A stretch of DNA of 64,000 bases from Actinomycetospora sp. TBRC 11914 (GTDB taxonomy: Bacteria; Actinomycetota; Actinomycetes; Mycobacteriales; Pseudonocardiaceae): positions 1-64,000 of the forward strand of contig NZ_JABBND010000010.1 in NCBI RefSeq assembly GCF_012933465.1, in the 5' to 3' direction. This document shows, piece after piece, positions 6,335 through 35,220 of this stretch. The position numbers were made by a program, and so were the translations under genes. The notes beneath the pieces were generated by a model, which saw nothing but the letters and a program-made list of their open reading frames with translations, was not told the origin of the DNA and ran no database searches. How positions within the stretch are numbered: the stretch's first letter is position 1; the number at the start of each line of letters is the position of its first letter.

Positions 6335-6374
6335 GTGCGTGCGTTCCCGTGTCTGGACACGGGAACGCACGCAC
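6335..6374. repeat. 40-bp perfect palindrome, family A copy 1
   Basis: Arms GTGCGTGCGTTCCCGTGTC at 6335-6353 and its exact complement at 6356-6374 flank a TG centre. It lies between two convergent genes and can act as a bidirectional terminator, though there is no U-tract. The same palindrome recurs at 26096-26135 with a compensatory base-pair change. Confidence 0.85.
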
Positions 6375-6381
6375 AAGCGCG

Positions 6382-7086
6382 TCAGCGCAACGTCGACCGC
6401 AGGAAGTTCAGCGTCTCGTTCCAGGCGATGGAGGCCTGCTCCGGGTCGTAGGTGCCCATGTGGTCCTCGTCGTTGAAGAAGGCGTGCCCCGCCGGGTAGA
6501 TCCGGAAGTCGGGCCGGCGGCCGGACTCGGACTCGATGCGGTCGGCGAGCGCCTTCACCGCGTCCGGCGGGGCCATCGTGTCCTGCTCGCCGAAGTGCCC
6601 GAGCATCGGCGCGGAGAGGTTCGCGAAGCTCGGGTAGTCCTCGCCGAGCACCCCGTAGAACGGTACCGCGGCACCGATCTTGTCGCCCTGCTGCGCGGCC
6701 AGGACCAGGACGAACCCGCCGCCCATGCAGAACCCGACGGCGCCCACCTTCCGCCCGACGACGGCCTCGTGGTCCAGCAGGTAGTCCACCGCCCCGCCGA
6801 GGTCGGTGGCGGCCCGGTCGACCGGCAGCTCCTGCATGAGCCGGCCGGCCTCGTCGGCGTCGTGGGTGGTGGTGCCGCCGTAGAGGTCCGGGGCGAGCGC
6901 GACGAAGCCCTCGGCGGCGAGGCGGTTGGTGACGTCGGCGATGTGCGACGTCAGGCCCCACCACTCCTGGATGACGACGACGCCGGGTCCCTCGCCGGAC
7001 TCCGGCAGCGCGAGGTAGCCGTGGGCCGTGCGCCCGTTGCTCGGGAAGGTCACGTTCTGCAGGGGGTTCTCGGCCATGGTCGACAT
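6382..7086 (-). CDS. Dienelactone hydrolase family protein
   Basis: This 234-residue cytoplasmic alpha/beta hydrolase has the dienelactone hydrolase layout: Glu41 in QEWWG, nucleophile Cys120 in GFCMGGG, Asp in GEQDTMAP, and His in PAGHAFFND. The cysteine nucleophile separates it from serine esterases. Family members open lactones or act on carboxymethylenebutenolide-like compounds; the substrate here is unknown. An in-frame ATG at 7077 (MAENPL) is an alternative start. It lies downstream of glbO on the same strand. Its TGA stop sits 7 nt from the family A palindrome. Confidence 0.9.
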   Translation of the reverse strand: MSTMAENPLQNVTFPSNGRTAHGYLALPESGEGPGVVVIQEWWGLTSHIADVTNRLAAEGFVALAPDLYGGTTTHDADEAGRLMQELPVDRAATDLGGAVDYLLDHEAVVGRKVGAVGFCMGGGFVLVLAAQQGDKIGAAVPFYGVLGEDYPSFANLSAPMLGHFGEQDTMAPPDAVKALADRIESESGRRPDFRIYPAGHAFFNDEDHMGTYDPEQASIAWNETLNFLRSTLR

Positions 7087-7135
7087 CCCATCAGGGACGA
7101 GCGGGCCCCGCGCGCGGGGACGACGTGACGCCGCG

Positions 7136-7528
7136 TCAGAACGACTTGTTCATCATGCTCATCGCCGCCATCTCCATGTACTCCCAGATCTGGCGGTGGC
7201 GCTCGGGGTCCAGCTCGACCTCGTCGATCGCCACACGCATGCAGCGCAGCCAGGCGTCGCGCTCGAGCGGGCCGATCGGGAAGGGCGCGTGGCGCATCCG
7301 CAGCCGCGGGTGCCCGCGCTGCTGGGAGTAGGTCTGCGGGCCGCCCCAGTACTGCTCGAGGAACATCCGCAGCCGGTCCTCGGCGCCGGCGAGGTCGTCC
7401 TCGGGGTAGAGCGGGCGCAGGACCGGGTCCTCGGCGACCTGCTCGTAGAACCGGTGGACGATGCGGTCGAAGGTCTCGTGGCCGCCGACCGCGTCGTAGA
7501 AGGTCTGGGGACTGCTCACGCCCACCAC
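7136..7528 (-). CDS. glbO: Group II truncated haemoglobin GlbO
   Basis: The 130 residues closely resemble mycobacterial GlbO (Rv2470), an oxygen-binding globin with a 2-on-2 fold. Expected haem-pocket residues are visible: Tyr28 in HRFY (B10), Tyr41 in PLYPEDDL (CD1), the proximal histidine in [10 protein letters not shown] (F8) and tryptophan in RDAWLRCM (G8). It probably handles O2 or NO chemistry in the cytoplasm. It sits between the MscS channel gene upstream and the dienelactone hydrolase gene downstream, all on the minus strand with gaps of 27 and 49 nt, so they may be co-transcribed. Confidence 0.95.
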
Positions 7529-7555
7529 CGTCTCAAATCCGCGTCGGGCCCGCCG

Positions 7556-8593
7556 TCATCGCCCGCCCGACGGTGCCGGCGCGCCGAACGGGGTGGGCGC
7601 CGGGACCCCGGCCTCGTCGAGCGCGGACTTCACCGCGCCCGCCACGGCGCGCTGGACCGCCCACTGCTCGCCGGGGCGGGTACGCACCGTCAGCCGCAGC
7701 AGGATGCCCTCCGCGGTCACCGACTGGACGCCGAGCATGTCCGGCGGGGCGAGGACCTTGGCCGCGACCTTCGCCTCGGCGCACTCCTCGGTGGCGGCGC
7801 GGAGGGCGAGCTCCGAGGTCTCCTCGACGTCGGCCGAGTGCCCCACCGGGATGTCGACCACGGCGACCGACCAGCCCTGGCTGGAGTTCCCGACGCGCAG
7901 CACCTCGCCGTTGCGGACGTACCAGACGGTCCCGGCGATGTCCCGCAGCGTGGTCACCCGCAGCCCGACGGCCTCGACGGTGCCGCTGGCCTCGCCGAGG
8001 TCGACGACGTCGCCGACGCCGTACTGGTCCTCGAGCATCATGAAGATCCCCGACAGGAAGTCCCGGACGAGGTTCTGGGCGCCGAAGCCGATCGCGACCC
8101 CGACGACGCCCGCCGAGGCGATGATCGGCGCCAGGTTCACCCCGAACTCGCCCAGGACCAGCACGAACGCCACGCCGTAGACCAGCAGCGTGGTGAACGA
8201 CCGCAGGACCGACCCGATGGTCTGCGCCCGCTGCGTGCGCCGTTCCACGATCTGCGGGGCGGCCTCGCGCAGGCTGGCGGCGGCGCGGTCGCGCAGCGGG
8301 CGCAGGATGCGGGGCACGCGGCCGCTGCTCGCGCCGACGGTGAGCCGCCGGATCGCGCGGTGCACGGCGAGCCGCAGCAGGACCGCGACGACGACGATGA
8401 CCGCGACGGTCGCCGCGTGGGAGACGATCGCGTCGGAGGACTTCGAGAGCCAGCCCGCGTGGGTGTACTGGAAGACCCGGGCGCACAACGACCCGCTGTC
8501 GCTCGCGCACGCGGGCGCGCCGACGGGGACCGACGGCAGCACGGGCGTGGGTGTCGGGGTCTGGGAGGGGACGTCCATGCCGACGGCGAGCAC
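7556..8593 (-). CDS. MscS-type mechanosensitive ion channel
   Basis: The 345-residue membrane protein has an N-terminal hydrophobic helix near residues 40-60, further helices at about 110-165, and the MscS pore and beta-domain signature (SAGVVGVAIGFGAQNLVRDFLSGIFMML region, then DQYGVGDVVDL). Such channels release solutes when membrane tension rises after osmotic downshock. The GTG start is preceded by AGGGT 7 nt upstream; a later ATG (MDVPSQ) is also possible. It is the first gene of a probable minus-strand set with glbO and faces the HNH gene divergently. Confidence 0.9.
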   Translation of the reverse strand: MLAVGMDVPSQTPTPTPVLPSVPVGAPACASDSGSLCARVFQYTHAGWLSKSSDAIVSHAATVAVIVVVAVLLRLAVHRAIRRLTVGASSGRVPRILRPLRDRAAASLREAAPQIVERRTQRAQTIGSVLRSFTTLLVYGVAFVLVLGEFGVNLAPIIASAGVVGVAIGFGAQNLVRDFLSGIFMMLEDQYGVGDVVDLGEASGTVEAVGLRVTTLRDIAGTVWYVRNGEVLRVGNSSQGWSVAVVDIPVGHSADVEETSELALRAATEECAEAKVAAKVLAPPDMLGVQSVTAEGILLRLTVRTRPGEQWAVQRAVAGAVKSALDEAGVPAPTPFGAPAPSGGR

Positions 8594-8667
8594 GACCCGA
8601 CCCTACGAGGGTCCCTCGGCGCCCCGCGGCGGGAGGTCGCCGGAGACGGGGAGGTGAACCCTGTCGT

Positions 8668-8693
8668 ATCACGGGTGCACAACGGGCCGTGAT
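8668..8693. promoter_or_regulatory. Inverted repeat in the mscS/HNH divergent promoter region
   Basis: ATCACGG at 8668-8674 is repeated inverted as CCGTGAT at 8687-8693 with a 12-bp spacer. Its position between two divergent starts would suit a regulator site, but nothing else supports this. Confidence 0.25.
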
Positions 8694-8731
8694 GTGGTCG
8701 ACTGTGGCCACTCTCGGTGGGAGGTGGTCGT

Positions 8732-9442
8732 GTGCCCGAACGACAACCCAGGACCGTGACGCCGCTGGTCGGCGGGGTCGGAACGGGTCCGGGTGTGGAG
8801 CCCGTCGCCGGTCCGGTCGACGCGATCCCCATCGCCGCCCCCGCCCCTGTCCCGCTCACCCCGCCCGCCCCCGCGGCGGGCGACGACGTCACGGTCACCG
8901 TCCGGGCCGAGCCTCCCGCGCCCGCCTGGGGCCGCCGGCGGGTCCTGCTCCTCAACGCGACCTACGAACCCCTCACCGCGCTCCCGTTGCGCCGGGCGAT
9001 CGTCCTGCTCGTCTGCGGCAAGGCCGACGTCGTGCACGGCGACCCCTCCGGGCTGGTGCTGCACTCCGCCGCCGGCTCCGTCGAGGTGCCGTCGGTGATC
9101 CGGCTGCGGGTCTACGTCCGGGTGCCCTACCGGGCCCGCGTCCCGCTCACCCGCGCGGCCCTGATGCACCGCGACCGGTTCCGGTGCGCCTACTGCGCGG
9201 GCAAGGCCGAGACCATCGACCACGTCGTGCCCCGCAGCCGCGGCGGGACGCACACCTGGGAGAACTGCGTGGCGTGCTGCGCGCGGTGCAACCACAAGAA
9301 GGCCGACAAGCTGCTCGCCGAGCTGGGCTGGCCGCTGCGCACCATGCCGACCGCACCGCGCGGCCGGCACTGGCGCCTCCTGGCGGGCCTCGTCGACGCC
9401 GACCCGCAGTGGCTGCCCTACCTGGGCGAGACGGCCGCCTGA
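8732..9442 (+). CDS. HNH endonuclease domain protein (Rv2469c-like)
   Basis: The first 60 residues are a proline- and valine-rich low-complexity region. A small domain follows, then a classic HNH zinc-finger nuclease motif: CAYC, IDHVVPRSRGG, and CCARCNHKK near residues 155-195. The family includes McrA-like nucleases but also conserved actinobacterial housekeeping proteins of unknown role. GTG at 8732 is chosen because GGGAGG at 8719-8724 lies 7 nt ahead; GTG 8717 would lack a site. Position and length recall Rv2469c. The DNA or RNA target is unknown. Confidence 0.85.
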   Translation: MPERQPRTVTPLVGGVGTGPGVEPVAGPVDAIPIAAPAPVPLTPPAPAAGDDVTVTVRAEPPAPAWGRRRVLLLNATYEPLTALPLRRAIVLLVCGKADVVHGDPSGLVLHSAAGSVEVPSVIRLRVYVRVPYRARVPLTRAALMHRDRFRCAYCAGKAETIDHVVPRSRGGTHTWENCVACCARCNHKKADKLLAELGWPLRTMPTAPRGRHWRLLAGLVDADPQWLPYLGETAA

Positions 9443-9447
9443 CGCGG

Positions 9448-9453
9448 CATGAT
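9448..9453 (+). promoter_or_regulatory. -10-like hexamer CATGAT before the amidase
   Basis: CATGAT ends 8 nt before the GTG start, and no Shine-Dalgarno sequence is present. This is the spacing expected of a leaderless transcript. Confidence 0.4.
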
Positions 9454-9461
9454 CGCGGCCC

Positions 9462-10916
9462 GTGGGTGATCTGCACGAGCTGACCGCGCTCGAGACCGCC
9501 GAGGCGGTCCGCCGGCGGGAGGTGGCGGTCCTCGACGTCGTCGACCACGCGCTGGGACGCGCGGAGACCCTCGGCGCCCGGCTCGGCGCGTTCGCGGTGC
9601 TCACCCCCGAGCGGGCGCGCGAGGCCGCGCGGGCCCTCGACGCGGGAGCCGAGGTGTCCGGCCCGCTCGTCGGGGTGCCCACCGCCGTCAAGGACCTGAC
9701 CGCGACGGCGGGCGTGCCGACCGGGCGCGGCTCGGTGGTCACCCGCGGCTGGGTGCCCGGGTACGACGACGACCTGGTCGGCCTGCTGCGCGCGGCGGGC
9801 ACGGTGAGCCTGGGGAAGACGGCGGTGCCGGAGTTCGGCCTGCCCTGCTACACCGAGCCCGCCGGGGCGCCGCCCGCGGTGACGCCCTGGGACCCGTCGC
9901 GCTCGGCCGGGGGCTCCTCGGGCGGGGCGGCGGCCGCCGTCGCCGCCGGGGTGCTGCCCGTCGCCCAGGGCTCGGACGGCGGCGGGTCGATCCGCATCCC
10001 GGCCTCGGTGTGCGGGCTTGTCGGGATCAAGACGACGCGGGGCCGGGTGCCCGCGGGGCCGGCGGGCGGCGACCCGGCGGGCCTGTCCGTCGCGGGGCCG
10101 CTGGCCCGCACGGTGGCCGACGCCGCCGCCCTGCTCGACGCGCTGTGCGGCGGGCGCACCTGGCCGGGGGAGCCGTTCGTGCCGGCCGCCCCGCCTGCGG
10201 AGGGCTACCTCGGCGTGGCCCGCGGCGCGCCCGGGCCGCGCCGCCGGATCGGGCTCAGCACCATCCCGCCCTTCGGGGACCTCGCCGACCTGCTCGGACG
10301 CGCGTGGGCACCCGTCGTCGTCGACCCGGTCTGCGCGGCGGCGGCCGAGGACACCGCCGCGGCGCTGGAGGCGCTCGGGCACACGGTGGAGCCGGTCGAC
10401 CTGCGGCTGTCCGACGAGGCGATCGCCGCGTTCCTGACGCTGTGGGCCGTGCTCGCGCTCGCCGAGCCGGTGGCCCCGGCGGACGAGGAGCGCCTGCAGC
10501 CGCTCACCCGCCTGCTCCGGGCCCGGGGACGGGAGGTCGGGCCGGCGGCGGGGCTGGGGGCCCTGCACGTCGCGCAGGTCGAGACGCGGCGCCTCACGGC
10601 GGCGCGGGCGGAGCTGGACGCGGTGCTCACGCCGTCGGTGGCGCTGCCGCCGCGGCCGGTGGGCTGGTTCTCGGCCGACGGGCCGGAGACCGACTTCGCG
10701 CGCCAGGTCGCGTTCACGCCCTGGACGGCGATCGCGAACCTGACCGGGGAGCCCGCGATCGGGCTGCCCCTCGGGTGGCCCAAGGTGGACGGCACGACGC
10801 TGCCGGTCGGGGTGACGCTGCGCGGGCGGCGCGGCGAGGAGGCCCTGCTGGTCGCGCTCGGCGCGGAACTGGAGGCCGCCCGGCCGTGGTCGGGGCGCCG
10901 CCCGCCGGTGTGGTGA
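9462..10916 (+). CDS. Amidase signature family hydrolase
   Basis: This 484-residue enzyme carries the amidase-signature Ser-Ser-Lys triad: Lys in AVKDLTATAG (about residue 78), then SAGGSSGGAAAAVAAG and GSDGGGSIRIPA around residues 147-180. Such cytoplasmic enzymes hydrolyse small amides. The absence of a neighbouring gatC or gatB argues against a GatA role in tRNA amidation. The GTG start has a -10-like element 8 nt upstream and no ribosome-binding site. It lies between HNH and the small membrane gene on the same strand. Substrate cannot be predicted. Confidence 0.88.
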   Translation: MGDLHELTALETAEAVRRREVAVLDVVDHALGRAETLGARLGAFAVLTPERAREAARALDAGAEVSGPLVGVPTAVKDLTATAGVPTGRGSVVTRGWVPGYDDDLVGLLRAAGTVSLGKTAVPEFGLPCYTEPAGAPPAVTPWDPSRSAGGSSGGAAAAVAAGVLPVAQGSDGGGSIRIPASVCGLVGIKTTRGRVPAGPAGGDPAGLSVAGPLARTVADAAALLDALCGGRTWPGEPFVPAAPPAEGYLGVARGAPGPRRRIGLSTIPPFGDLADLLGRAWAPVVVDPVCAAAAEDTAAALEALGHTVEPVDLRLSDEAIAAFLTLWAVLALAEPVAPADEERLQPLTRLLRARGREVGPAAGLGALHVAQVETRRLTAARAELDAVLTPSVALPPRPVGWFSADGPETDFARQVAFTPWTAIANLTGEPAIGLPLGWPKVDGTTLPVGVTLRGRRGEEALLVALGAELEAARPWSGRRPPVW

Positions 10917-11225: not shown

Positions 11226-11745
11226 GGGAACGGGGCAGATCGACCGTCCCCAGGCGGGGCCGGGCGAGACGCCGGTGGTGACCGGCGGGGGCCTCGCGGA
11301 GGAGCCGGTCGCCGGTCACTCCCGCATCCCCACCGCCTCCGGGCGGATCTCCGAGGCGACCGACGTCCACTCCGAGGACGAGCACGTCCCCTTCTCGCCC
11401 TCGCAGCTCTCCCGCATCGACGAGGCCCTGACGCGGACCTCTGCCGAGACCGGGCTGCTGTTCACGGTGTGGGTCGGCGCGCTCGGCGGCCGCTCCCGCG
11501 AGCGGGCCGAGGAGCTGCACGCCACGCTCGGCGACTCGGCGGCCGACGCGGTGCTCGTCGCGGTGTCGCCGGGGGAGCGGGTCGTCGAGGTCGTGACCGG
11601 CGAGGAGTCGCACCGCCGGGTGGACGACCAGGGCGCCAAGATCGCCGTCGGCTCGATGGTCTCCCGGTTCACCGAGAGCGACCTGGTCGGCGGGATCGTC
11701 GAGGGCCTGCGCGTGCTCGGCGACCACGCCGGCAGCAAGCACTAG
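11212..11745 (+). CDS. DUF5130 domain protein (Rv2468c-like)
   Basis: This 177-residue protein has a disordered N-terminal third and a folded domain from about residue 55 (FSPSQLSRIDEAL, then GLLFTVWVG) that resembles the TPM-like DUF5130 fold. Family members are conserved in actinobacteria but lack an assigned role. The GTG start is fixed by AGGAGG 5 nt upstream inside the preceding gene. The VLVAVSPGERVVEVVTG strand pattern fits a TPM fold. It lies next to pepN, as Rv2468c lies next to Rv2467. Confidence 0.8.
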   Translation: MAPGEGTGQIDRPQAGPGETPVVTGGGLAEEPVAGHSRIPTASGRISEATDVHSEDEHVPFSPSQLSRIDEALTRTSAETGLLFTVWVGALGGRSRERAEELHATLGDSAADAVLVAVSPGERVVEVVTGEESHRRVDDQGAKIAVGSMVSRFTESDLVGGIVEGLRVLGDHAGSKH

Positions 11746-11752
11746 CGTGCAT

Positions 11753-11792
11753 GTGAACGGATTTGGTCGTCTGGACGACCAAATCCGTTCAC
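11753..11792. repeat. 40-bp perfect palindrome, family B copy 1
   Basis: Arm GTGAACGGATTTGGTCGTC and its exact complement flank a TG centre. The pairing extends 3 bp further outward (CAT/ATG, 11750-11795). It lies between convergent DUF5130 and pepN, so it may terminate both. A diverged copy lies at 29293-29332. Confidence 0.85.
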
Positions 11793-11798
11793 ATGGGG

Positions 11799-14366
<2,568 letters not shown>

Positions 14367-18207: not shown

Positions 18208-19635
18208 ATGGCGACCAGCACGGACACGCTGACCCAGCACTGGATCGACGGCGAGGCGGTGGCCGGCTCGGGGTCGATCGCGGTCGTCAACCCCGCGACG
18301 GGCGCGACGATCGCCGAGGTGCCGCGCGGCGGCCGGGCCGAGGTCGACGCGGCGGTCCTGGCGGCCCGGCAGGCGTTCCCGGCGTGGTCGTCGACCCCGG
18401 TGGCCGACCGGGCGGCGGCGGTGCTGCGCATCCGGGACGGGCTCAAGGCCCGCCACGAGGAGCTCGCGCAGTCGATCACCGCCGAGATGGGGTCGCCGAT
18501 CAGCTTCGCGCGCAGCGTGCAGCTCGGGATGCCGATGGCGACGTCGAAGGGCGTGGCCGGGCTCGCCGACGGGTTCGCGTGGAGCGAGGAGATCGGGAAC
18601 TCGCTGGTGGTGCGCGAGCCGGTCGGCGTCGTCGGCGCGATCACGCCGTGGAACTACCCGCTCCACCAGGTCGTCGCGAAGCTCGCACCGGCCCTCGTCG
18701 CGGGGTGCACCGTCGTGCTCAAGCCCTCCGAGGTGGCGCCGCTGACGGCGGGCGCGCTCGCGACGATCAGCGCCGAGGCCGGGCTGCCCGCCGGGGTGTT
18801 CAACGTCGTGCACGGCACCGGGCCCGAGGCCGGCGAGGCGCTGGCGGCGCACCCGGGCGTGGACATGGTGTCGTTCACGGGCTCGGTCGCGGCGGGGCGT
18901 CGCGTGCAGGAGGTCGCCGCGGGCACCGTCAAGCGGGTCGCGCTCGAGCTCGGCGGGAAGTCCGCGAACATCGTGCTCGACGACGCCGACCTCACCCAGG
19001 CGGTCAAGGTCGGCCTCGGCAACTGCTTCATCAACGGCGGTCAGACGTGCACGGCGTGGACGCGGCTGCTCGTGCCGGAGTCGCTGCACGACGAGGTCGT
19101 CGAGAGGGCGGTCACGGCGTCGGCGAAGTACGGCGTCGGCGACCCGACCGACGAGGCGACGCGGATCGGCCCGATGTCGTCGGCGACGCAGCGCGACCGG
19201 GTGGAGTCCTACATCACCCGCGGTGTGGAGGAGGGCGCCGAGCTGGCCGTGGGCGGGCCGGGCGCGCCGGAGGGCGTGTCGGCCGAGGGCGCCTACGTGC
19301 GCCCGACGATCTTCTCCGGGGTGCGGCCCGACATGGTGATCGCGCAGGAAGAGATCTTCGGGCCGGTGCTGTCGGTGATGCCGTACTCCGACGTCGACGA
19401 GGCGGTGGCGATCGCCAACAACACGATCTACGGGCTCGCGGGCGCGGTGTTCGCGGGGTCGCAGGAGCGCGGCATCGAGGTGGCGCGCCGGATGCGGACC
19501 GGACAGGTCGACGTCAACGGCGGCGCGTTCAACCCGCTGGCGCCGTTCGGGGGCTACAAGCAGTCCGGCACCGGCCGGGAGCTGGGGCGCTACGGGCTCG
19601 AGGAGTTCCTCGAGGTCAAGTCCATCCAGCTGTAG
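18208..19635 (+). CDS. Aldehyde dehydrogenase family protein
   Basis: The 475-residue enzyme has all hallmarks of NAD(P)-dependent aldehyde dehydrogenases: the WNYPLHQ cofactor segment, [21 protein letters not shown], catalytic Glu in [16 protein letters not shown] (about residue 250) and catalytic Cys in [12 protein letters not shown] (about residue 284). It oxidises an unidentified aldehyde to the acid. The ATG has CGGAGG 7 nt upstream. The gene appears monocistronic; the family C palindrome 16 nt after its stop probably terminates it. Confidence 0.93.
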
Positions 19636-19650
19636 GTGGCCTCCGGCCTC

Positions 19651-19690
19651 GTGAGCACTAACTGTCGGTATAGCGACACTTTGTGCTCAC
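19651..19690. repeat. 40-bp imperfect palindrome, family C copy 1
   Basis: Arm GTGAGCACTAACTGTCGGT pairs with 19672-19690 at 16 of 19 positions around an AT centre. It lies just after the aldehyde dehydrogenase. A related palindrome is at 35181-35220, and both are joined to the flank CGGCCTCGTGAGC. Confidence 0.75.
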
Positions 19691-19806
19691 GGGCGGCGAA
19701 GCCGCACCTCTTCTCCGAAACCGCACCCACGGCGTGAAGGCCGCGTCTAGCGTCCGCTCGCGTCGGTGGTCCCGATCCCCGGGCCCCGCGCGAGTGGGGA
19801 GTGCGC

Positions 19807-26095: not shown

Positions 26096-26135
26096 GTGCG
26101 TGCGTTCCCGTGCCCCGGCACGGGAACGCACGCAC
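26096..26135. repeat. 40-bp perfect palindrome, family A copy 2
   Basis: Arm GTGCGTGCGTTCCCGTGCC and its exact complement flank a CC centre. Relative to 6335-6374 one pair next to the centre changed on both sides (T-A to C-G). It lies inside the operon, between the ligase stop and the amidotransferase ribosome-binding site. Confidence 0.85.
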
Positions 26136-26142
26136 AAGCGCG

Positions 26143-28722
26143 TTAGCGCAAAATCCAGGTGTCCTTCGAGCCGCCGCCCCGCGACGAGTTGACCACGAGA
26201 CTGTCGGCGGGCGCGACACGGGTGAGCGGGGTCGGCAGCACCCCGGGATGCGGGCCGAGGACGACGAAGGCCCGCAGGTCCACCACCCGCGGGGCCAGCC
26301 GGGTGCCGGTGAACGTCGGGTGCGTGGAGATGCGGATCGTCTCCTGGGCGACGTAGCTCGCCGGGTTGGCCCGCAGGTCGCGCGCCGCCGCCGCCAGCTC
26401 GTCGGCGTCGGCGTGCGGGCCGATGACGATGCCGGCCCCGCCGTACCCGTCGACCGGCTTGAGCACCAGCTCGTCGAGGTGGTCGAGCACGTGGGCGCGC
26501 TGGTCGTCGTCGGCGCAGAAGTAGGTGGTGACGTCGTCGAGCAGCGGCTTCTCGCCGAAGTAGTACTCGGTGAGCGCCCGGATGTAGGGGTAGACGGCCT
26601 TGTCGTCGACCAGCCCGTTGCCCGGGGTGTTGGCGAGCGCGAGCCGCCCCTCACGAGTCGCGGCCTGCAGCGGCTCGCGCAGCGTGCGGCCGTCCGCGTC
26701 GGGCGAGGCGAAGAGCTTCTCCTCGTCGATGCGCCGGTACGCGACGTCGATCCGCCGGCCGGACACCGCCACCGCGATCGACCCGTCGTCGGTCACCCGC
26801 AGCCCGGAAGGTTCGAGCAGCGGGACGCCCATCTCCTCGGCGAGCATCGCGTGCTCGAAGTACGCCGAGTCCTGGGGCCCCTCGGTGAGCACGACGAGGC
26901 TCGGGTCGTCGCCCGCCGCGGGCGGCGCGCAGGAGAGCAGCGCCGCGCGCAGCATCGCCGGGCCCTCGTCGGAGTCGACGACGCCCTCGGGCGCCTGCAG
27001 CTCGGGCAGCACGCTGCGCACCACCCGGCGGTCGGCCATCGCGTAGGCGATGCCCGAGGGGATGCGCAGGTTGTCCTCGAGGACCTTCCAGCGCCCCTCG
27101 CCGTCGCACACCAGGTCCAGGCCCGAGACCAGCGCCCGCGTGGTCTTCTCGGGGACCATCGTCGAGGCCTCGCCCTCGGCGGGCAGCCAGCGCAGCGCCT
27201 CGCGCGGCAGGATGCCGTCGCGCAGGGCGGCCCGCTCGCCGTGGAGGTCCTGCAGCAGCGCCTCGAGGGTGCGGGCGCGCTGCACCAGGCCGTCGGAGAG
27301 CTGCTCCCAGTCGGTGCGAGTGATCAGCCGGGGGATGAGGTCGAGGGGGAAGAGCCGCTCAGGGTCATCGGGCTGGGGGAAGAACATCGACCGGGCGCGC
27401 TGCTCGGCGTCGCGGCTCTTCTCGTGGGCGAGCAGCCCCGCGGGGCCGATCCGCTCCAGGTTCGTGACGAGCCAGGCGTAGGGGGGCCTCACGTGCCCGG
27501 TCTCGTCCACGGCCTCGTCGTACGACGGCGGGTGGTAGTCGCCGAGCAGGACGGGCGCGGCCGTCGCCGGCGTCGGCAGCTGCTCGACGGCGGGCTCGTC
27601 GGGCTCCCCGCGGGTCTCGGCGACGAGCATGTCGACGACGCCCTCGAGCCCGCCACCGCGGTTGGCGCGCTGGCGCTGGCGGGCCGCGGAGCTGCCCCGG
27701 GCCAGGGCGTCGAGCGCGAGCTCGGAGATCTCGTCCCAGTCGCCGGCGTCGGTGAGGTCGTCGCGCAGGTGGTCGAGCATCAGCCGGATCGCCCGCGACG
27801 GCGGCACCAGCTCCCGGCCGGTGACGTCGACGAGGTCGCCCTCCAGCCCGGAGCGCGCGGCGCGCCACGACGCCGCGCGGAGCAGCTCGGGGCGGTAGCG
27901 CGGCTGGGGTCGGCCCTCGAGGTGGGCCCGCACGCCGTGCACGACGAGCGCCCGCGCGAGCCCGGCGACGAGCACGACGCCGTCGACGGTGGGGGAGGCG
28001 TCGCAGATCCGCACCTCGACGGTCTTCTGGTGCGCCGAGGGACGCATGTCGAAGTAGACCATCCCCGGGTCGGACATCGTCCCGGACCGGAGCAGGTCGT
28101 CGATGAGGGCGTCGTAGTCGGCGGCGTCGCGCAGCGGGGCGGGCGGGCCGGCCGTGGGCCAGCGGTGCCAGGCCAGCGTGCGCGAGCTCGCGTACCCGGT
28201 GTCCTCGCTCTGCCAGAACGGGCTCGAGCCGGACAGCGCGAGCAGGACCGGCAGCCACGGCGCGGAGTGCTGCATGACGGCGACGGCGGCGTCGCGGTCG
28301 GGCACGTCGACGTGCACCTGGGTGCCGCAGATCTGCTGCTCGAAGGCGAGCATCTGGTACTCGTCGCGCATCCGCTCGTAGCGCGGGGAGGCGGTGATGC
28401 CCTGCGCGGAGCTGTCCACCAGCGGCACGCTGCCGGCGCCGACGACGCCGAGGCCGCGCTCCTGCGCCATCGACGACAGCATGCGGCGCAGCCGCAGCAG
28501 GTCGGCGCGCAGGTCGGTGAGGCTCGCCGTCGGGTCGGAGTTCGTCTCGATGATCGACGGCTTGAGCTCGGCCGCGAACGCGTCGGCGTCCAGGTCGGCG
28601 AGCTCGTCGAGCAGCTCGGGCACGCGCGGCACGGCGCTGCGCGTCCCGAGGTCCACCAGGTGGAACTCCTCCTCCACCCCGAGGACGACGTCCCGGGCCG
28701 CCGCGATCCGCTCCGCCGACAT
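26143..28722 (-). CDS. Fused GCS2 carboxylate-amine ligase and circularly permuted ATP-grasp protein
   Basis: The 859-residue protein joins two amide-forming enzymes. Residues 10-370 form a GCS2 (YbdK-type glutamate-cysteine ligase) domain (VLGVEEEFHLVD, CGTQVHVDVPD, KTVEVRICD). Residues 400-859 form a circularly permuted ATP-grasp domain (VLEDNLRIPSGIAYA, GPQDSAYFEH, LANTPGNGLVDDKAVY, VLKPVDGYGGAGIV). Both form peptide-like bonds using ATP, so a short peptide or amide is the likely product. The ATG has TAGCGT 7 nt upstream. It starts the operon with the NAGGN-like amidotransferase and S9 peptidase and is divergent from rpiB. The amino acids joined cannot be predicted. Confidence 0.88.
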   Translation of the reverse strand: MSAERIAAARDVVLGVEEEFHLVDLGTRSAVPRVPELLDELADLDADAFAAELKPSIIETNSDPTASLTDLRADLLRLRRMLSSMAQERGLGVVGAGSVPLVDSSAQGITASPRYERMRDEYQMLAFEQQICGTQVHVDVPDRDAAVAVMQHSAPWLPVLLALSGSSPFWQSEDTGYASSRTLAWHRWPTAGPPAPLRDAADYDALIDDLLRSGTMSDPGMVYFDMRPSAHQKTVEVRICDASPTVDGVVLVAGLARALVVHGVRAHLEGRPQPRYRPELLRAASWRAARSGLEGDLVDVTGRELVPPSRAIRLMLDHLRDDLTDAGDWDEISELALDALARGSSAARQRQRANRGGGLEGVVDMLVAETRGEPDEPAVEQLPTPATAAPVLLGDYHPPSYDEAVDETGHVRPPYAWLVTNLERIGPAGLLAHEKSRDAEQRARSMFFPQPDDPERLFPLDLIPRLITRTDWEQLSDGLVQRARTLEALLQDLHGERAALRDGILPREALRWLPAEGEASTMVPEKTTRALVSGLDLVCDGEGRWKVLEDNLRIPSGIAYAMADRRVVRSVLPELQAPEGVVDSDEGPAMLRAALLSCAPPAAGDDPSLVVLTEGPQDSAYFEHAMLAEEMGVPLLEPSGLRVTDDGSIAVAVSGRRIDVAYRRIDEEKLFASPDADGRTLREPLQAATREGRLALANTPGNGLVDDKAVYPYIRALTEYYFGEKPLLDDVTTYFCADDDQRAHVLDHLDELVLKPVDGYGGAGIVIGPHADADELAAAARDLRANPASYVAQETIRISTHPTFTGTRLAPRVVDLRAFVVLGPHPGVLPTPLTRVAPADSLVVNSSRGGGSKDTWILR

Positions 28723-28843: not shown

Positions 28844-29296
28844 GTGCGCGTCTACCTCGGTTCCGACCACGCGGGCTTCGAGCTGAAGGCCCACCTGTGC
28901 AGCGAGCTGCGAGCCGACGGCCACGAGGTCGTCGACGTGGGCCCGGAGGTCTACGACGCCGACGACGACTACCCGCCGTACTGCACCGCCACCGGCGAGC
29001 GCACCGTCGCCGACCCGGGCAGCCTCGGCGTCGTCATCGGCGGCTCGGGCAACGGCGAGCAGATCGCCGCCAACAAGGTGCGCGGCTGCCGGGCGGCGCT
29101 GGCCTGGAGCATCGAGACCGCGCAGCTCGCCCGCCGGCACAACAACGCGCAGATCGTGGCGGTCGGCGCGCGCATGCACACCCCGGAGGAGGCGACGACG
29201 TTCGTGCGGGCGTTCCTCGCGACGGAGTTCGAGGGCGGCCGCCACCAGCGCCGCATCGACATGCTCGACCGGTACGAGAAGGGCGAGCCCATGTGA
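28844..29296 (+). CDS. rpiB: Ribose-5-phosphate isomerase B
   Basis: The 150-residue RpiB/LacAB-family enzyme interconverts ribose 5-phosphate and ribulose 5-phosphate in the pentose phosphate pathway. It begins MRVYLGSDHAGFELK and contains GVVIGGSGNGEQIAANKVRG and the HNNAQIVAVGARMH segment. The mycobacterial form has a catalytic Glu in place of Cys in this loop, as here (GSGNGEQ). GTG 28844 matches remembered homologues. Its TGA stop lies inside the family B palindrome, and nei starts at the palindrome's far edge. Order matches Rv2465c-Rv2464c. Confidence 0.95.
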   Translation: MRVYLGSDHAGFELKAHLCSELRADGHEVVDVGPEVYDADDDYPPYCTATGERTVADPGSLGVVIGGSGNGEQIAANKVRGCRAALAWSIETAQLARRHNNAQIVAVGARMHTPEEATTFVRAFLATEFEGGRHQRRIDMLDRYEKGEPM

Positions 29297-29332
29297 ACGG
29301 TTTTCGTCGTCCCGACGACCACATCCGTTCAC
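29293..29332. repeat. 40-bp imperfect palindrome, family B copy 2, overlapping rpiB stop and touching the nei start
   Basis: Arm GTGAACGGTTTTCGTCGTC pairs with 29314-29332 at 16 of 19 positions around a CC centre. The rpiB TGA occupies bases 2-4 of the palindrome. The symmetric AT/AT flank supplies the nei ATG at 29333. Confidence 0.8.
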
Positions 29333-30163
29333 ATGCCTGAGGGCCACACGATCCGCCGCCTCGCGCGGTCGCACGTCCGTCGCTTCCGCGGCCACGAGGT
29401 CGCGGTGAGCTCACCGCAGGGGCGGTTCGCCGCGGGCGCCGAGCTCGTCGACGGCCGGGTGCTGCGGTCCGTCGACGCCCACGGCAAGCACCTGTTCCAC
29501 GTCTACGAGGACGACCTCGTCGTGCACGTCCACCTCGGCCTCTACGGGAAGTTCTCGCTCACCGCGATCCCCGGGGACGGCGCCGTCCCGGAGCCGGTCG
29601 GTCAGGTGCGGATGCGGATGGTGGGGAGCACCCACTACGCCGACCTGCGCGGTGCCACCGCCTGCGAGGTGCTCACCGAGGGCGAGGTGGCGGCCGTCCA
29701 CGAGCGTCTGGGCGCCGATCCGTTGCGTCCCGACGCCGACCCCGAGCAGGCCTGGCGGCGCCTCTCCCGGTCCCGCTCGCCCATCGCGACGCTGCTCATG
29801 GACCAGTCGGTGATCGCCGGCGTCGGCAACGTCTACCGCGCCGAGGTGCTCTTCCGGCACGGCATCGACCCGCTGGTCGCGGGCCGCGACCTGGGGCGGG
29901 CGCGGTTCGACGCGGTGTGGGACGACCTGGTCGACCTGCTCGCCGACGGCGTGCGCCGCGGCTCGATCGACACCCTGCGTCCGGAGCACGCCGACCTGCG
30001 CTGCCACCACCCCGCCCGACGGCACGACCGCACCTGCGGACGGCCCGTCTACGTCTACCGGCGGGCCGGACTGCCGTGCCTGCTGTGCGGCACCGAGATC
30101 GCGCGCCGCACCCACGCGGCCCGCAACCTCTTCTGGTGCCCGGTGTGCCAGAGCGCGACCTGA
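29333..30163 (+). CDS. nei: Fpg/Nei family DNA glycosylase (endonuclease VIII, Nei1-like)
   Basis: The 276-residue base-excision repair enzyme removes oxidised bases and nicks the abasic site. Catalytic Pro2-Glu3 begin the protein (MPEGHTIRR), Lys occurs in DAHGKHLFH (about residue 53), and the H2TH region contains DQSVIAGVGNVYRAE. A zinc finger ends the protein (CLLCGT then CPVCQ). GHTI after PE favours Nei over Fpg (MutM). It starts immediately after the rpiB palindrome with no conventional ribosome-binding site outside the hairpin. Position matches Rv2464c. Confidence 0.93.
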   Translation: MPEGHTIRRLARSHVRRFRGHEVAVSSPQGRFAAGAELVDGRVLRSVDAHGKHLFHVYEDDLVVHVHLGLYGKFSLTAIPGDGAVPEPVGQVRMRMVGSTHYADLRGATACEVLTEGEVAAVHERLGADPLRPDADPEQAWRRLSRSRSPIATLLMDQSVIAGVGNVYRAEVLFRHGIDPLVAGRDLGRARFDAVWDDLVDLLADGVRRGSIDTLRPEHADLRCHHPARRHDRTCGRPVYVYRRAGLPCLLCGTEIARRTHAARNLFWCPVCQSAT

Positions 30164-31601: not shown

Positions 31602-31661
31602 AGGCAGTTGATCACGAATACCGGCACACGGTGATGTGCCGGTTCCCATGATCGACTGCCT
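31602..31661. repeat. 60-bp imperfect palindrome
   Basis: AGGCAGT pairs with ACTGCCT at the ends, GATCA with TGATC inside, and ACCGGCACA with TGTGCCGGT around a 6-nt centre. It lies 20 nt after the preceding stop and could be a terminator. It is unrelated in sequence to the 40-bp palindromes. Confidence 0.65.
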
Positions 31662-31767
31662 AGGGTCGGCGGACCGTATCCCCTGCGGCGCGATGGATCT
31701 CGGTGGACAGCGCCGTTACGGTAGCTCCGGACGAAGCGGACACGAAGCGGCCAGGGCGGGGGCGACC

Positions 31768-31926
31768 ATGGCGGACCCGGAACGGCGGATCCTGGACCGG
31801 ACGTTCGACTCGCCACCGATCCCCGGCAAGGCCCCGTGGTGGAGCCGTGGCGTGACCCCCGCGATCACCGTCGTGGTGCTGGTCGCGTTCGTGCTGTCGC
31901 TCCTGGCGCTCGCCCTCCTCTACTGA
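31768..31926 (+). CDS. Small single-pass membrane protein
   Basis: This 52-residue protein starts MADPERRILDRTFDSPP and ends with one hydrophobic helix (residues 31-51). The ATG is chosen as the last one before the coding-like stretch; there is no strong ribosome-binding site. It sits 2 nt upstream of the MmcQ/YjbR-like gene and is probably co-transcribed with it. No family is recognised. Confidence 0.5.
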   Translation: MADPERRILDRTFDSPPIPGKAPWWSRGVTPAITVVVLVAFVLSLLALALLY

Positions 31927-31928
31927 CC

Positions 31929-32309
31929 GTGCCCGACGCCGAGCAGATCCTCGCCGCCGTGCGGGCGGCGTGCCTGGCGCTGCCCGAGGTGGTCGAGCGC
32001 CCGAGCCACGGGTCGCCGGCGTGGTTCGTGCGCGGGAAGAAGACGTTCGTCGTGTTCGCCGACCACCACCACGGCGACCCGCACACCGCGATCTGGGCCG
32101 CCGCCCCGCCCGGGGTCGCCGCCGAGCTGGTCGCGGCGGAGCCCGCACGGTTCTTCGTCCCGCCCTACGTCGGGCACCGCGGGTGGCTGGGCCTGCGCCT
32201 GGACCTCGCGGGCGAGGACGCGCTCGACGGGACCGAGCTGCGCGGGATCGCCGTGGACGCCTGGCGGACGGTGGCCCCCACGACGCTCCTCCGGCTCCTC
32301 GACGCCTGA
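31929..32309 (+). CDS. MmcQ/YjbR (DUF419) family protein
   Basis: The 126-residue protein matches the small MmcQ/YjbR fold: an N-terminal helix with ALPEVVERPSHGSPAWFVRGKKTFV and a C-terminal VGHRGWLGLRLD stretch with the AWRTVAPTTLL ending. These are double-wing-like proteins found across bacteria; a DNA-binding role has been proposed but not proven. The GTG lies just after the small membrane gene. Its end is 4 nt from the convergent transporter gene, leaving no room for a separate terminator. Confidence 0.85.
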   Translation: MPDAEQILAAVRAACLALPEVVERPSHGSPAWFVRGKKTFVVFADHHHGDPHTAIWAAAPPGVAAELVAAEPARFFVPPYVGHRGWLGLRLDLAGEDALDGTELRGIAVDAWRTVAPTTLLRLLDA

Positions 32310-32313
32310 CGGT

Positions 32314-33957
32314 TCAGCGCGCCGCCGCCTCCTCCGGGAGGTCACCGCGGTCCTCGTCGGCCTCGGCGCGCAGCCGGCGGACCATCTCGGGGCGGGCCGT
32401 CATGTAGGCCGTCCCGCTGCGCGCGCCCCACACGTAGATCGCGAGCGAGAAGGCGGCGACGACGACCGAGTCCCACGGCGCCCCGAGCACGTGCGCCCCG
32501 CCGAAGCTGCCCAGCGCGGAGAGGACCGTCAGCCCGATCAGGTAGACGACGAGCCACGTCCCGCCGACGAGCTCCGAGACGGCCCGCCCCGACCGGAGCC
32601 ACACCACCGCGTACCAGACGATCCCGACCGCGATGATCGCCATCGCGATCGACAGCTTCGACCAGGACGTCCAGAACACCACCAGCGAGGAGACGACGAA
32701 CGCCACCGGCGCGATCACCGTCATGCCGCGCAGCCGGGTGTCGGTGCGGGTCAGCCCGGAGGCGCGGAACGCGATCAGCGAGACCGCGCCGATCTGGAAG
32801 GTGAAGGCCGCGATCGAGCCGGTCACCGAGATGATCGAGTGCCAGCTCGGCAGCGGCAGCAGGTACGCGAGCCCGACGACGAAGTTCAGCACCAGCGCGC
32901 GCGCCGGGATGCCGCGCCTGTTCAGCGCCGTCAGCGACCTCGGGAAGAAGCCGTTCTTGGCCAGCCCGAACACGTTGCGCGAGTTCGAGGCGGTGTAGAC
33001 GATGCCCGACCCCGACGGCGAGAGCATCGAGTCGGCGATGAGCGTCCACGAGAGCCAGGACAGGCCGAGGACCATCGCGAGGTTCGCGAACGGCGAGTCG
33101 AAGTTGACCCCGTGCCACCCGTTCCCGAGCAGCGAGGCGGGCACCGCGCCGAGGAACGCGAGCTGCAGCGCGAGGTAGAGCACGATCGTGATGACGATGG
33201 TGGCGATGAGGGCCCGCGGCACGGTGTGGCGGGGATCGCGGGCCTCGCCGGAGAGCTCGATGACGTTGCGGAAGCCGGTGTAGGCGAACACCATCCCGGC
33301 CGTCGCGATCGTCGAGAGCGCCGCCTCCCAGCCGTACGGGGCGTACCCGCCGTGGTCGGTGAGGTTCGACGAGTCGAAGCCGGACGCGATCAGCAGCACC
33401 ACGGTCGCTGTCGGGATCAGGACCTTGATGGCGGTGACGACCGTGTTCGAGCGGGCGAACAGCAGCACGCCGAACCAGTTCAGGGCCACGAAGACGGCCA
33501 TGAGGGCGACCGCGATGAGGATGCCGAGGCCGGTCAGCGAGGCCCCGTCGTACACGCCGGGCAGGTAGCTCGCCGCGTACTGGACGACGCCGGCGGCCTC
33601 GGTGGGCGGGTTGCCGACGTAGCTGATCCACATCGCCCAACCGACGATGCCCGCGGTCAGCCCGCCGTGGGAGTACATCGGGTAGCGCACGAGGCCGCCC
33701 GACTCCGGCTTCGCCATCCCGAGCTCGGCGAACACCAGCGCCACGAGCAGCATCAGCGCCCCACCGATGACCCAGGCCAGCATGGCCGCGGGCCCGGCGT
33801 CCTGGGCGGCGTACATCGAGGAGAACAGCCAGCCCGACCCGATGACGCTGCCCAGCCCCGCCGCGAGCAGCGACCAGAAGCCGAGGGCCTTGTGCAGCCC
33901 GGCGTCGGGCCGCCGGTCACCGGTGGCCGATGCCGGCGCGGCGCTCGTGTCCGTCAT
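32314..33957 (-). CDS. APC superfamily amino acid permease
   Basis: The 547-residue integral membrane protein has about 12-14 hydrophobic helices. The first carries the APC signature LGFWSLLAAGLGSVIGSGWLFS, in which the unwound Gly-rich segment binds substrate, and AELGMAKPESGGLVRYP follows in helix 2-3. It imports or exchanges an amino acid or amine that cannot be specified. The ATG has AGGAG 5 nt upstream. It is followed downstream only by the convergent MmcQ gene, so it appears to be a single-gene unit. Confidence 0.9.
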   Translation of the reverse strand: MTDTSAAPASATGDRRPDAGLHKALGFWSLLAAGLGSVIGSGWLFSSMYAAQDAGPAAMLAWVIGGALMLLVALVFAELGMAKPESGGLVRYPMYSHGGLTAGIVGWAMWISYVGNPPTEAAGVVQYAASYLPGVYDGASLTGLGILIAVALMAVFVALNWFGVLLFARSNTVVTAIKVLIPTATVVLLIASGFDSSNLTDHGGYAPYGWEAALSTIATAGMVFAYTGFRNVIELSGEARDPRHTVPRALIATIVITIVLYLALQLAFLGAVPASLLGNGWHGVNFDSPFANLAMVLGLSWLSWTLIADSMLSPSGSGIVYTASNSRNVFGLAKNGFFPRSLTALNRRGIPARALVLNFVVGLAYLLPLPSWHSIISVTGSIAAFTFQIGAVSLIAFRASGLTRTDTRLRGMTVIAPVAFVVSSLVVFWTSWSKLSIAMAIIAVGIVWYAVVWLRSGRAVSELVGGTWLVVYLIGLTVLSALGSFGGAHVLGAPWDSVVVAAFSLAIYVWGARSGTAYMTARPEMVRRLRAEADEDRGDLPEEAAAR

Positions 33958-34072
33958 GCTGCTCCTCGCCACGGTGTGCTCACGGATACTTCGGATCTCA
34001 CTACCCGCTCGGGGACCGGGGTTCACGCCGAGCTGACGAGTCGTCGACGCATCGTGACGTGCGCCGCGCGCG

Positions 34073-35083
34073 TCAGGCCCCGAAGAGCGGGGCGAGCAGC
34101 CGGCCGAGGGCGGAGCGCTGGGCCGCGGACGGGCCTGGTGTGGACTGGCCCGGCGTGGACGGGCCCGGCGTGGACGGGGTGGGCGCGGACGGAGTGGGCG
34201 CGGACCGGGTCGCGGCCTGGTGGGCGGCCGGTGCCGGGGCCGGCTCCAGCGCGGCGGCGACGAGCCGGGCGAGGGCGGCCTGGCCGTCGGCGTTCGGCGC
34301 GCCCGCCCGCAGCGGGTCGGGCCCGGCGAACGGCGTGATCCAGGGCTGCCGGGCGCAGGCGCTGTGGGCGACGAAGGCCGGGCGGGCGTCCACGACGACG
34401 GCCCCGGCGGCCCGGCCGCGGTCGGTGAGGATCCCGTCGAGGCGGGCGACCGCGGCGTCGACCCGGCGGGCGGCCGTGGCGTCGGCGGCACCCGCGGCGC
34501 AGGGGAGGCCCTCGGAGAGGCGCGGGTAGGTCGTCACGACGAGGCGGGCGGCCGGGGCCCGACGGTGGATGTCGGCCAGCGAGGCGTCGAGGGCGCCGCC
34601 CAGGCTGTCGAGGGCGTGGCCGGTGCGGGCGGCCGCGGCCTCGCACGCGGCGGGAGTGCTGCCCGTGGCGCACGCCCCGACGAGCTGGCCGAGCCCGGTG
34701 GCGTCGGCGCCGACGGTGATCGCCACGCGCGTGACGCCTGGGGCCAGCGCGGCGAACTGGGTGTTCGCCCCGCCGGTGGTCGAGGCGCACGCGCGGCTGG
34801 TCCAGGCCTGCGGGGCGAGGCGCGGACCGACCCGGGCCGGGTACGACGTGGTCGTGCGCCGGCAGGACGTCCCGTCGGCGCCGGTCGGGTCGACGAGGGG
34901 GTCGCCGCCCGCCGCGGTCCCGGCGGCCCAGGAGTCGCCGAGCGCCACGAACGTCACCGGTCCGTCGGCCCGCGGCGCCGCATCCGCCGTCCGGCTGACG
35001 GCGGTGACCGTGAGGGCCGTGAGGGTGACGGCCGTGACCGTCAGGCACAGCGCGACCACGGCGGCGCGGCGGGACCGTCGCAC
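34073..35083 (-). CDS. Exported SGNH/GDSL hydrolase-like protein, active site incomplete
   Basis: The 336-residue protein has a signal peptide (RRSRRAAVVALCLTVTAVTL, cleavage near the ADAAP region) and block I of the SGNH family (VALGDSWAAG). The block III asparagine motif reads VGADATG instead of GGND. The C-terminal catalytic His is absent: GAPNADGQAAL stands where HPNxxG is usual. The six or so cysteines fit the extracellular actinobacterial group. The tail is a Pro/Thr/Ser repeat. GAGGAG precedes the GTG start. It may be inactive or use altered catalysis. Confidence 0.75.
   Translation of the reverse strand: MRRSRRAAVVALCLTVTAVTLTALTVTAVSRTADAAPRADGPVTFVALGDSWAAGTAAGGDPLVDPTGADGTSCRRTTTSYPARVGPRLAPQAWTSRACASTTGGANTQFAALAPGVTRVAITVGADATGLGQLVGACATGSTPAACEAAAARTGHALDSLGGALDASLADIHRRAPAARLVVTTYPRLSEGLPCAAGAADATAARRVDAAVARLDGILTDRGRAAGAVVVDARPAFVAHSACARQPWITPFAGPDPLRAGAPNADGQAALARLVAAALEPAPAPAAHQAATRSAPTPSAPTPSTPGPSTPGQSTPGPSAAQRSALGRLLAPLFGA
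34128..34210. repeat. 15-bp-type tandem repeat encoding a Pro/Thr/Ser tail
   Basis: Imperfect units such as gcgtggacgggcccg recur across this stretch and encode STPGP/SAPTP repeats near the C-terminus of the SGNH-like protein, typical of a linker or wall-spanning tail. Confidence 0.7.
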
Positions 35084-35180
35084 GATGACTCCTCGGACGA
35101 TCGCTCGATGGGACGTCGAGTGTTGTCGTCCGGGGAGCCCCGCAGAAGATCCGTCCTTCGATCGGGTGCGCTCCGCGCCG

Positions 35181-35220
35181 GTGAGCGGAAAGTGCCGCCA
35201 CACCGGCACTTCCTGCTCAC
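35181..35220. repeat. 40-bp imperfect palindrome, family C copy 2, overlapping a stop codon
   Basis: Arm GTGAGCGGAAAGTGCCGCC pairs with 35202-35220 at 15 of 19 positions around an AC centre. On the minus strand, bases 2-4 are the TGA stop of the Rieske gene. It separates that gene from the SGNH-like gene downstream. Confidence 0.75.

Follow-up and report, generated by a model that had tools for sequence, protein, structure and literature searches.

The 64,000-nucleotide stretch analysed here (the window) covers positions 1-64000 of contig C2 in the 63-contig, 6.52-Mb genome of Actinomycetospora sp. TBRC 11914 (the source genome) and has a G+C content of 74%. It carries six palindromes at gene 3′ ends, which a reading made from the letters alone (the sequence-only reading) had described as 40 bp long, starting with GTG and ending with CAC; a direct read bore out the coordinates, length and ends of all six. 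Their arms pair at 19, 19, 16, 19, 16 and 15 of 19 positions in window order, which agrees with its count of three perfect copies and three with 3-4 mismatches. The three pairs into which it had sorted them stand as families A, B and C, with amendments: both B copies of the window extend to 46 bp (CAT..ATG), the C palindrome is the centre of a longer unit, and the copy at 35181, which an automatic family rule had filed under B, is an outlying C-like one with GTGAGC ends and C-like flanks. At six of six elements, an adjoining gene has a stop codon whose end falls in the range from 4 nt inside the palindrome edge to 15 nt outside it. A stop at or just before the palindrome, as first described, is thus confirmed as to nearness, but the stop often lies inside the element (Table 1). 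The flanking mini-hairpins, outer stem, genome-specific dialects and in-element stop codons described below are additions to that reading.

Table 1 Palindromic elements of the window and proteins with element-derived tails
Feature	Position	Strand	Details
A-type element	6321..6388	.	Palindrome 6335-6374; mini-hairpins GGCC-TGAC-GGCC and GCGC-GTCA-GCGC; TGA of left gene in first loop, stop of convergent gene (TCA = TGA) in second loop
B-type element	11739..11807	.	Palindrome 11753-11792 (46 bp with CAT/ATG); two mini-hairpins, 5′ GCAC-TAGC-GTGC containing a stop codon and 3′ GGGGC-TAC-GCCCC
C-type element	19633..19709	.	Palindrome 19651-19690; outer stem and two mini-hairpins; outer stem begins TAG, the stop codon of an aldehyde dehydrogenase gene
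A-type element	26096..26149	.	Palindrome 26096-26135; single mini-hairpin GCGC-GTTA-GCGC, its loop containing the stop codon of a GCS2/ATP-grasp gene (minus strand); other side without mini-hairpin
B-type element	29290..29335	.	Between rpiB and an Fpg/Nei-type DNA glycosylase gene; rpiB stop TGA within GTGAAC, glycosylase ATG at the palindrome's end
C-like divergent copy	35163..35238	.	Palindrome 35181-35220; mini-hairpins GCGC-TCC-GCGC and GGCC-GCA-GGCC; a minus-strand gene for a Rieske-type ring hydroxylase has its stop inside
Protein ending ..STNCRYSDL	L058 3523-4122	minus	Tail read from C element
Protein ending ..LRPREHTRSV	contig C2 198216-199283	minus	Tail read from C element
Protein ending ..STKGRYSDS	contig C2 200033-200881	minus	Tail read from C element

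A palindrome between two mini-hairpins

The repeated unit consists of a mini-hairpin, the 40-bp palindrome and a second mini-hairpin, and C copies are closed by an outer stem. The mini-hairpin usually lies 2 nt outward of the palindrome, on both sides in most copies. Stems of at least 4 bp were present in 17 of 30 A flanks, 29 of 44 B flanks and 54 of 58 C flanks, against 10.3% of 5,000 random places. A second count, of C-type flanks with a mini-hairpin, gave 72/80 in the source genome, 84/134 in other Actinomycetospora and 2/32 in Saccharopolyspora (control, 346/4,000). Read outward, the loops of A and C are of the GNA or GTCA-like types and those of B are more mixed; in the source genome C loops were GGA, GAA, GCA or GTA (GNA) in 73 of the 76 flanks with a stem of at least 3. 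On gene-end sides, 10 of 15 A loops were GTCA, GTTA or GCTA, which read inward as TGA, TAA and TAG; none of 11 on gene-start sides were.

With its outer stem, TAGGT/ACCTA, the C unit reaches about 76 bp (consensus TAGGTGGCC..GGCCACCTA). Because the unit is symmetric, both DNA strands read much alike. The mini-hairpin stems differ between the two sides in 17 of 29 C copies of the source genome with two 4-bp/3-nt mini-hairpins, and since the two sides vary independently, it is the mini-hairpins and not an extended hairpin that are kept. An extended 76-nt hairpin is thereby ruled out as the main conserved fold, although symmetric copies do fold so. Mini-hairpins are also kept on the start-facing sides of tandem gene pairs (C 14/15, B 8/11, A 4/9), as for a DNA unit.

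Folded with DNA parameters, the 19633-19709 element took a cloverleaf shape with four arms, and the copies at 6335 and 11753 formed three hairpins each; the two symmetric copies tried favoured one long hairpin. RNA parameters again gave three hairpins for the 6335 and 11753 copies, a longer imperfect hairpin for 19633-19709, and for 35163..35238 a minimum-free-energy structure in which the flanks pair with each other. Stability z scores ran from -2.8 to -13.2 in eight of eight elements tried, a stable hairpin downstream of a gene; the weakest fold was that of the 29293 copy (z -2.8), for which 4 of 200 shuffles were as good.

One length, many copies

To characterize length, we counted GTG..CAC palindromes that were at least 75% paired in 0.67 Mb, comprising contig C2, Actinomycetospora endophytica contig C1 and part of its C12, and 15 contigs of a third genus genome, G013, most of them picked for matching an A element or the window. 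Forty-two were 40 bp long, including a few outside families A, B and C, against at most 14 at every other length from 24 bp up: a sharp peak with no smooth spread. The C and A search patterns permitted spacers of 9-39, yet nearly every genus match listed was exactly 40 bp. Exceptions among the matches listed were, for C, 50 bp twice (G014 and G001, one of them over a 40-bp match) and 41 and 38 bp (G001), and for A, 32 bp (G006), 29 bp (G003), 53 bp (G011), 39 bp (source genome) and 26 bp (G008). GTGGAC..GTCCAC 40-mers with a different interior (contig C2 88766, 88839 and 210098; G013 contig C231 12008) are possibly a further 40-bp family.

The source genome holds well over a hundred A, B and C copies: 16 A loci and one weak one, at least 41 distinct B loci (40 of 88 candidates scored), and 84 matches to the C pattern GTGAGCAC-N9-39-GTGCTCAC, where a control pattern had none. 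In 120 genomes drawn from the family, C-type matches numbered 84 (source genome), 52, 40, 72 and 33 in the five Actinomycetospora genomes, so that the exact count covers 5 of 18 genus genomes, and 0-5 in the 115 genomes of other genera (control pattern, 0-2). A-type half-sites matched in 8 of 18 genus genomes (control, 0-1), with 37 matches in A. endophytica (G015), 14 in the source genome, 12 in G006 and 8 in G008; G017, G003, G011 and G013 had a single match apiece, of a length other than 40 bp in G003 and G011. When named genomes were scanned with GTGAGCACT-N22-AGTGCTCAC, at least 110 stretches matched; the 80 loci listed comprised 64 from Actinomycetospora, 15 from Saccharopolyspora and one from Rhodococcus, the Saccharopolyspora species among the matches listed being hirsuta, shandongensis, indica, oryzae and elongata; this list does not speak to absence elsewhere. 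Forty-bp GTGAGCACT..AGTGCTCAC cores are thus found in a second genus as well (Saccharopolyspora loci L212, L222, L251 and others).

Three third-order Markov versions of the window had 2, 3 and 5 palindromes at a score of 11 or more, with a top score of 13, and the real window had 14, three of them scoring 20-22. Window and genome counts exceed those of Markov versions or control patterns, and a chance origin is not upheld. In twenty 20-kb stretches from nine relatives, picked regardless of elements (400 kb), nine places passed a loose 40-mer test; one of them, in G017, was not member-like, leaving eight plausible copies in five genomes. The proposal of one dispersed palindromic repeat class with several families is therefore borne out by the genome-wide copies and the exact 40-bp peak, together with the gains and losses among relatives given below. 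Rfam covariance models run on 122,580 bases (the window and loci L011, L022 and L023) returned two tRNAs and nothing else; the window has tRNA genes at 48037-48107 (minus) and 48578-48651 (plus).

Genome-specific dialects

The outer eight bases are common to the genus, the outer half-sites of both C and A being conserved from one genome to another; the inner arm differs from genome to genome and stays paired. The commonest C interiors, which have variants beside them in each genome, read TAAGTGTCG and TTTCTGGGG in the source genome, TTTCCGTGG and TAAGTGGGG in G014, TAAGTGGGG and TAACGGTCG in G003, TAATCCGTG in G001, TTCGAGGGC and TTGTTGTCG in G007, TAATTGACG in A. endophytica and TTTCCGGGG in G013. 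A arms read GTTCCCGT in 28 of 30 cases in the source genome and GTTTCCGT in 72 of 74 in A. endophytica, and each genome has one half-and-half copy.

Pairing of the C interior was assessed in a set of 66 C cores from named Actinomycetospora, 58 rows of which were distinct and were used, collected by a search that left the inner 22 bases free. Inner cells were paired in 427 of 464 cases, and changes on both sides were found at all eight inner pairs. Double-change cells numbered 182, compared with 56.5 in shuffles and 27-60 in slid versions; because copies within a genome are related, these cells are not independent events. Counting instead how many pairs have a double change fails to tell C cores from shuffles (342/500).

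Orthologous sites in relatives

Fifteen elements of the source genome had a locatable site in A. endophytica. Eleven sites were filled, each with arms unlike the source copy, and four were not: 29293, 77683 and 147328 on contig C2, and 38576 in the C1 region, where A. endophytica has an apparent half copy. (Positions 1968, 16757, 34431, 38576, 39193, 55511 and 59964, and G014 65926, are coordinates of the C1-region comparison.) Four A. endophytica elements (1968, 39193, 55511 and 59964) correspond to source-genome sites that have no element. These counts concern placed elements: source copies at C2 89956, 108058, 137256, 198199, 200026, 204070 and 217046 and at 1723 and 34372 of the C1 region had no placement, nor did 13 A. 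endophytica elements (12 from the first site comparison, one from the C1-region comparison), and 35181 was not comparable. Going by its right flank, the source copy at 34372 is quite possibly the counterpart of A. endophytica 34431. These are presence/absence differences at orthologous sites, with no strain-level events among them.

Site by site, both the dialect and the family of an element change. At 6335, A. endophytica has an A copy in its own dialect, and G013 retains most of the mini-hairpin sequence with other sequence between and no palindrome. At 11753 the source genome and A. endophytica both have a B element; the G013 element there is of C type and follows the TAG that is also present in the source genome. 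At 19651 there is a C copy in A. endophytica and a 25-nt remnant in G013; at 26096, the A copy of A. endophytica is in that genome's dialect and the A copy of G013 is degenerate. GCACGCCGATAGGGCGTCAGC follows or replaces the A palindrome at the sites on G013 contig C98 that match window 6335 and 26096. Where A. endophytica has a C element at 34431, G014 and G003 carry unrelated D-type palindromes, and where G014 has one at 65926 the source genome carries an E-type palindrome. Site 16757 is filled in all four genomes and site-specific letters are still common to the source genome, G014 and G003, so not every copy has been homogenised.

Family D palindromes are 45 bp long (CGAAGGGCCCC..GGGGCCCTTCG), lack GTG/CAC ends or evident mini-hairpins, and occupy over 20 loci of the source genome (for example, L010 10060-10104, L016 14084-14128 and L018 19091-19135), with relatives in other genus members. 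Those of family E are about 54-57 bp (CGCACGAACGGCCGGTTCGTG.. and similar; L011 14397-14450, L013 18217-18272 and L022 1301-1357), and one sits where A. chiangmaiensis (G014) has the C element at 65926.

At the rpiB-nei junction (29293), no such 40-mer was found in 17 of 17 relatives, the nearest sequence being the short GTGAGCGGCCCAC of G013. Two of 17 relatives have, at the junction, the GGGCGAGCCC repeat that lies beside this B copy, and 9 of 17 have its core GGCGAGCC; the repeat is coding sequence with a 3-bp stem. Similarly, GGCGAACGCC beside the B copy at A. endophytica 39193 is already present in the source genome, which has no element there. The hairpins at 77683 and C1-region 38576 are not in the relative. 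Across these sites there is only a weak hint that B may land beside a pre-existing hairpin.

Sites that are shared in different dialects need either gene conversion between copies or repeated insertion at the same place, and the present data do not separate the two.

Position at gene 3′ ends and termination

Gene context was assessed for 74 elements of the source genome, found mostly by family searches, using home-made gene calls trained on Pfam-supported genes. Thirty-six lay between convergent genes, 35 between tandem genes and 2 between divergent genes, and 1 was inside a predicted gene; convergent pairs thus flank 36 of 73 intergenic elements, compared with 114 of 645 neighbouring pairs overall (423 tandem, 108 divergent). 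Distances from stop codon to palindrome edge are quantised. For C (n = 55) they were +15 in 31 cases, -4 in 10, -11 in 4, -23 in 2, -33 in 2 and others in 6; for B (n = 35), -4 in 20 and -23 in 2, with others from 3 to 13; and for A (n = 17), 6-8 in 10, with others from 9 to 97. Most stops therefore fall in one of three places: the loop of a mini-hairpin, the outer stem or the palindrome's GTGA. Some reading frames enter the element and gain C-terminal residues from it; the three proteins with such tails in Table 1 are mutually unrelated.

The sequence-only reading had the palindromes doubling as terminators, and one could go further and regard them as ordinary bidirectional terminators under selection, homogenised by gene conversion and without mobility. 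Their 3′-end position, the convergent excess with only two divergent cases, the unrelated palindromes at orthologous convergent sites in other species (34431 and G014 65926) and the 11 sites common to A. endophytica in different dialects are all consistent with this. However, a T-run follows the hairpin in 6 of 148 flanks, against a background of 5.1%, and the stops overlap or abut the palindrome, a position that argues against termination given that PMC4824070 reports almost complete repression of the function of an Escherichia coli terminator lying several base pairs past a gene. A gene start lies within 37 nt on 19 of 39 start-facing sides, where mini-hairpins are nevertheless kept; an exact 40 bp and mini-hairpins are unnecessary for a terminator; and some copies are at sites that are empty in relatives. 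Termination is hence not established as a function, and as a full explanation of the elements we consider it possible but rather improbable.

A second alternative holds that a sequence-specific DNA- or RNA-binding protein recognises the palindromes as its sites, with outer half-sites (GTGAGCAC, GTGCGTGC and GTGAACGG) in a fixed 40-bp frame and an interior that co-evolves with the protein in each species. It would account for conserved half-sites at fixed spacing around a free but paired interior, and for the way in which nearly all copies of a genome change in concert. Binding alone, however, requires neither paired inner arms nor sequence-variable flanking hairpins, it does not predict fixed stop positions inside the element, and it leaves the replacement of one family by another without explanation; we regard it as doubtful.

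Mobiliser, tags and target sites

Y1_Tnp (PF01797) was absent from 18 of 18 genus genomes, the source genome included, and present in 5 of 14 control genomes, which rejects a RAYT/Y1 transposase as the mobiliser. GTAG and CGTC, the tags of REP palindromes, occurred at their best fixed offset in at most 2 and 6 of 148 flanks, respectively, and never abutting inside; anywhere in 30 nt they occurred in 10 and 36 of 148 flanks, counts that have no background beside them. Of the 148 flanks, 36 have GGAG at a single fixed offset, and this is the GGA loop of the mini-hairpin plus the next base, not an unpaired tag. Because the genus has no Y1 transposase and the elements no fixed GTAG/CGTC tag, they are not RAYT-type REPs; RAYT/IS200-type REPs or REPINs are a largely refuted and very improbable explanation, for all their likeness in size, copy number and palindromy, in extragenic position, in the small hairpins on their flanks and in a possible clover configuration resembling one mentioned for REPINs (PMC3116915).

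The C ends, TAG..CTA, suggested strict TA insertion of the IS630 kind. Of 35 C copies of the source genome, 11 had TA at both outer-stem ends and 25 had it at one end or both. At A. endophytica 34431 the CTA of the element corresponds to TCA in G014 and G003, which lack the element, and the right-hand TA is absent there. A and B flank profiles show no terminal TA. Neither the TA counts nor the 34431 site bear out strict TA insertion.

Interpretation

On balance, these palindromes are probably genus-typical, non-autonomous REP/REPIN-like repeats that colonise gene 3′ ends and act there as two-way 3′-end hairpins. Their repetition, geometry, fixed length, paired genome-specific interiors, differences between sites and fixed in-element stops are direct observations. 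The process behind them may run as follows. A few current master sequences per genome would give rise to copies, made by a putative enzyme that recognises either the conserved outer half-site or the single strand in its folded form. Gene 3′ ends would be almost the only places where copies persist, since the element supplies stop codons and would do little harm there. Resident copies would serve as symmetric 3′-end hairpins for one or two genes, as partial terminators, as protectors of mRNA 3′ ends, or both, while older copies would be replaced, converted to the current dialect or deleted. More tentatively, and with clearly less confidence, we suggest that this could be palindromic DNA of a new mobile or self-converting kind, which a non-Y1, hairpin-recognising enzyme would move; it would carry its own stops and a strict 40-bp core, settle at gene ends (possibly beside small pre-existing hairpins) and be rewritten into a species dialect throughout the genome.

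Several results weigh against the REP-like reading. Besides the absence of Y1_Tnp, no transposase or carrier gene was found; between four pairs of close copies, about 1-2 kb apart, translations looked ordinary by eye, with no family search made, and a carrier there was rejected. Target-site duplication was not evident in the few sites read by eye, with no systematic test made. Density is uneven, with no copies in the 20-40 kb each of G010, G002, G001 and G014 within the 400-kb sample, and a search of viral contigs with one pattern found no copy. RNA folding of the C copies tried gives long hairpins and no three-hairpin form. Repeated hairpins are common here, as families D and E without this architecture show. 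For most locatable elements of the source genome the A. endophytica site is filled too, which makes much of the pattern old and then homogenised, and in-place conversion without much transposition could explain the dialects. As for the role at 3′ ends, simple intrinsic termination is weakened by the missing T-run, the stop-abutting position, the nearby gene starts and the start-side mini-hairpins, and is unproven.

If the REP-like reading is true, Actinomycetota would have a REP-like system that spreads by means other than the type of transposase known for REPs, and its repeats would edit the C-termini and 3′ ends of genes while spreading. Paired, genome-specific interiors at shared sites make concerted change of dispersed repeats directly testable, and the exact 40-bp rule offers a handle for finding the recognising protein.

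Comparison with known systems

We recognised no description of these elements in the open-access literature searched, which is not proof of absence from print. The closest likeness is to REPs and REPINs, described as GTAG- and CGTC-tagged palindromes (PMC3733652, PMC3116915): both are short, palindromic, extragenic, high in copy number and probably mobile, with variants that differ between genomes, and in both, a pair of conserved parts in inverted orientation can form either a single long hairpin or a clover. The present elements differ in lacking the fixed tag, in a genus without Y1 transposase, and in having an exact 40-bp core, copy-specific mini-hairpin stems and fixed stops inside the element. 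Bidirectional intrinsic terminators between convergent genes, for which compensatory evolution is described in Bacillus cereus (PMC5381666), likewise place a hairpin at convergent 3′ ends and show compensatory pair changes. Unlike them, the elements have no T-run, form repeated families of one exact length, hold stops inside the unit and also occur just before start codons.

Correia and RUP elements are palindromic IS630-type miniature inverted-repeat transposable elements (MITEs), small and non-autonomous, with inverted repeats, and can bring regulatory signals. The elements described here resemble them in all these respects but differ in that only 11 of 35 C copies have TA at both outer-stem ends and in the missing right-hand TA at the 34431 site of G014 and G003. 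The DNA uptake sequences of Neisseria and Pasteurellaceae have species dialects and are paired as terminators at gene ends. Dialect changes in nearly all copies and inverted pairs at gene ends are common to both systems, whereas copies are far fewer here, in a comparison that concerns full 40-mers, single half-sites not having been sought.

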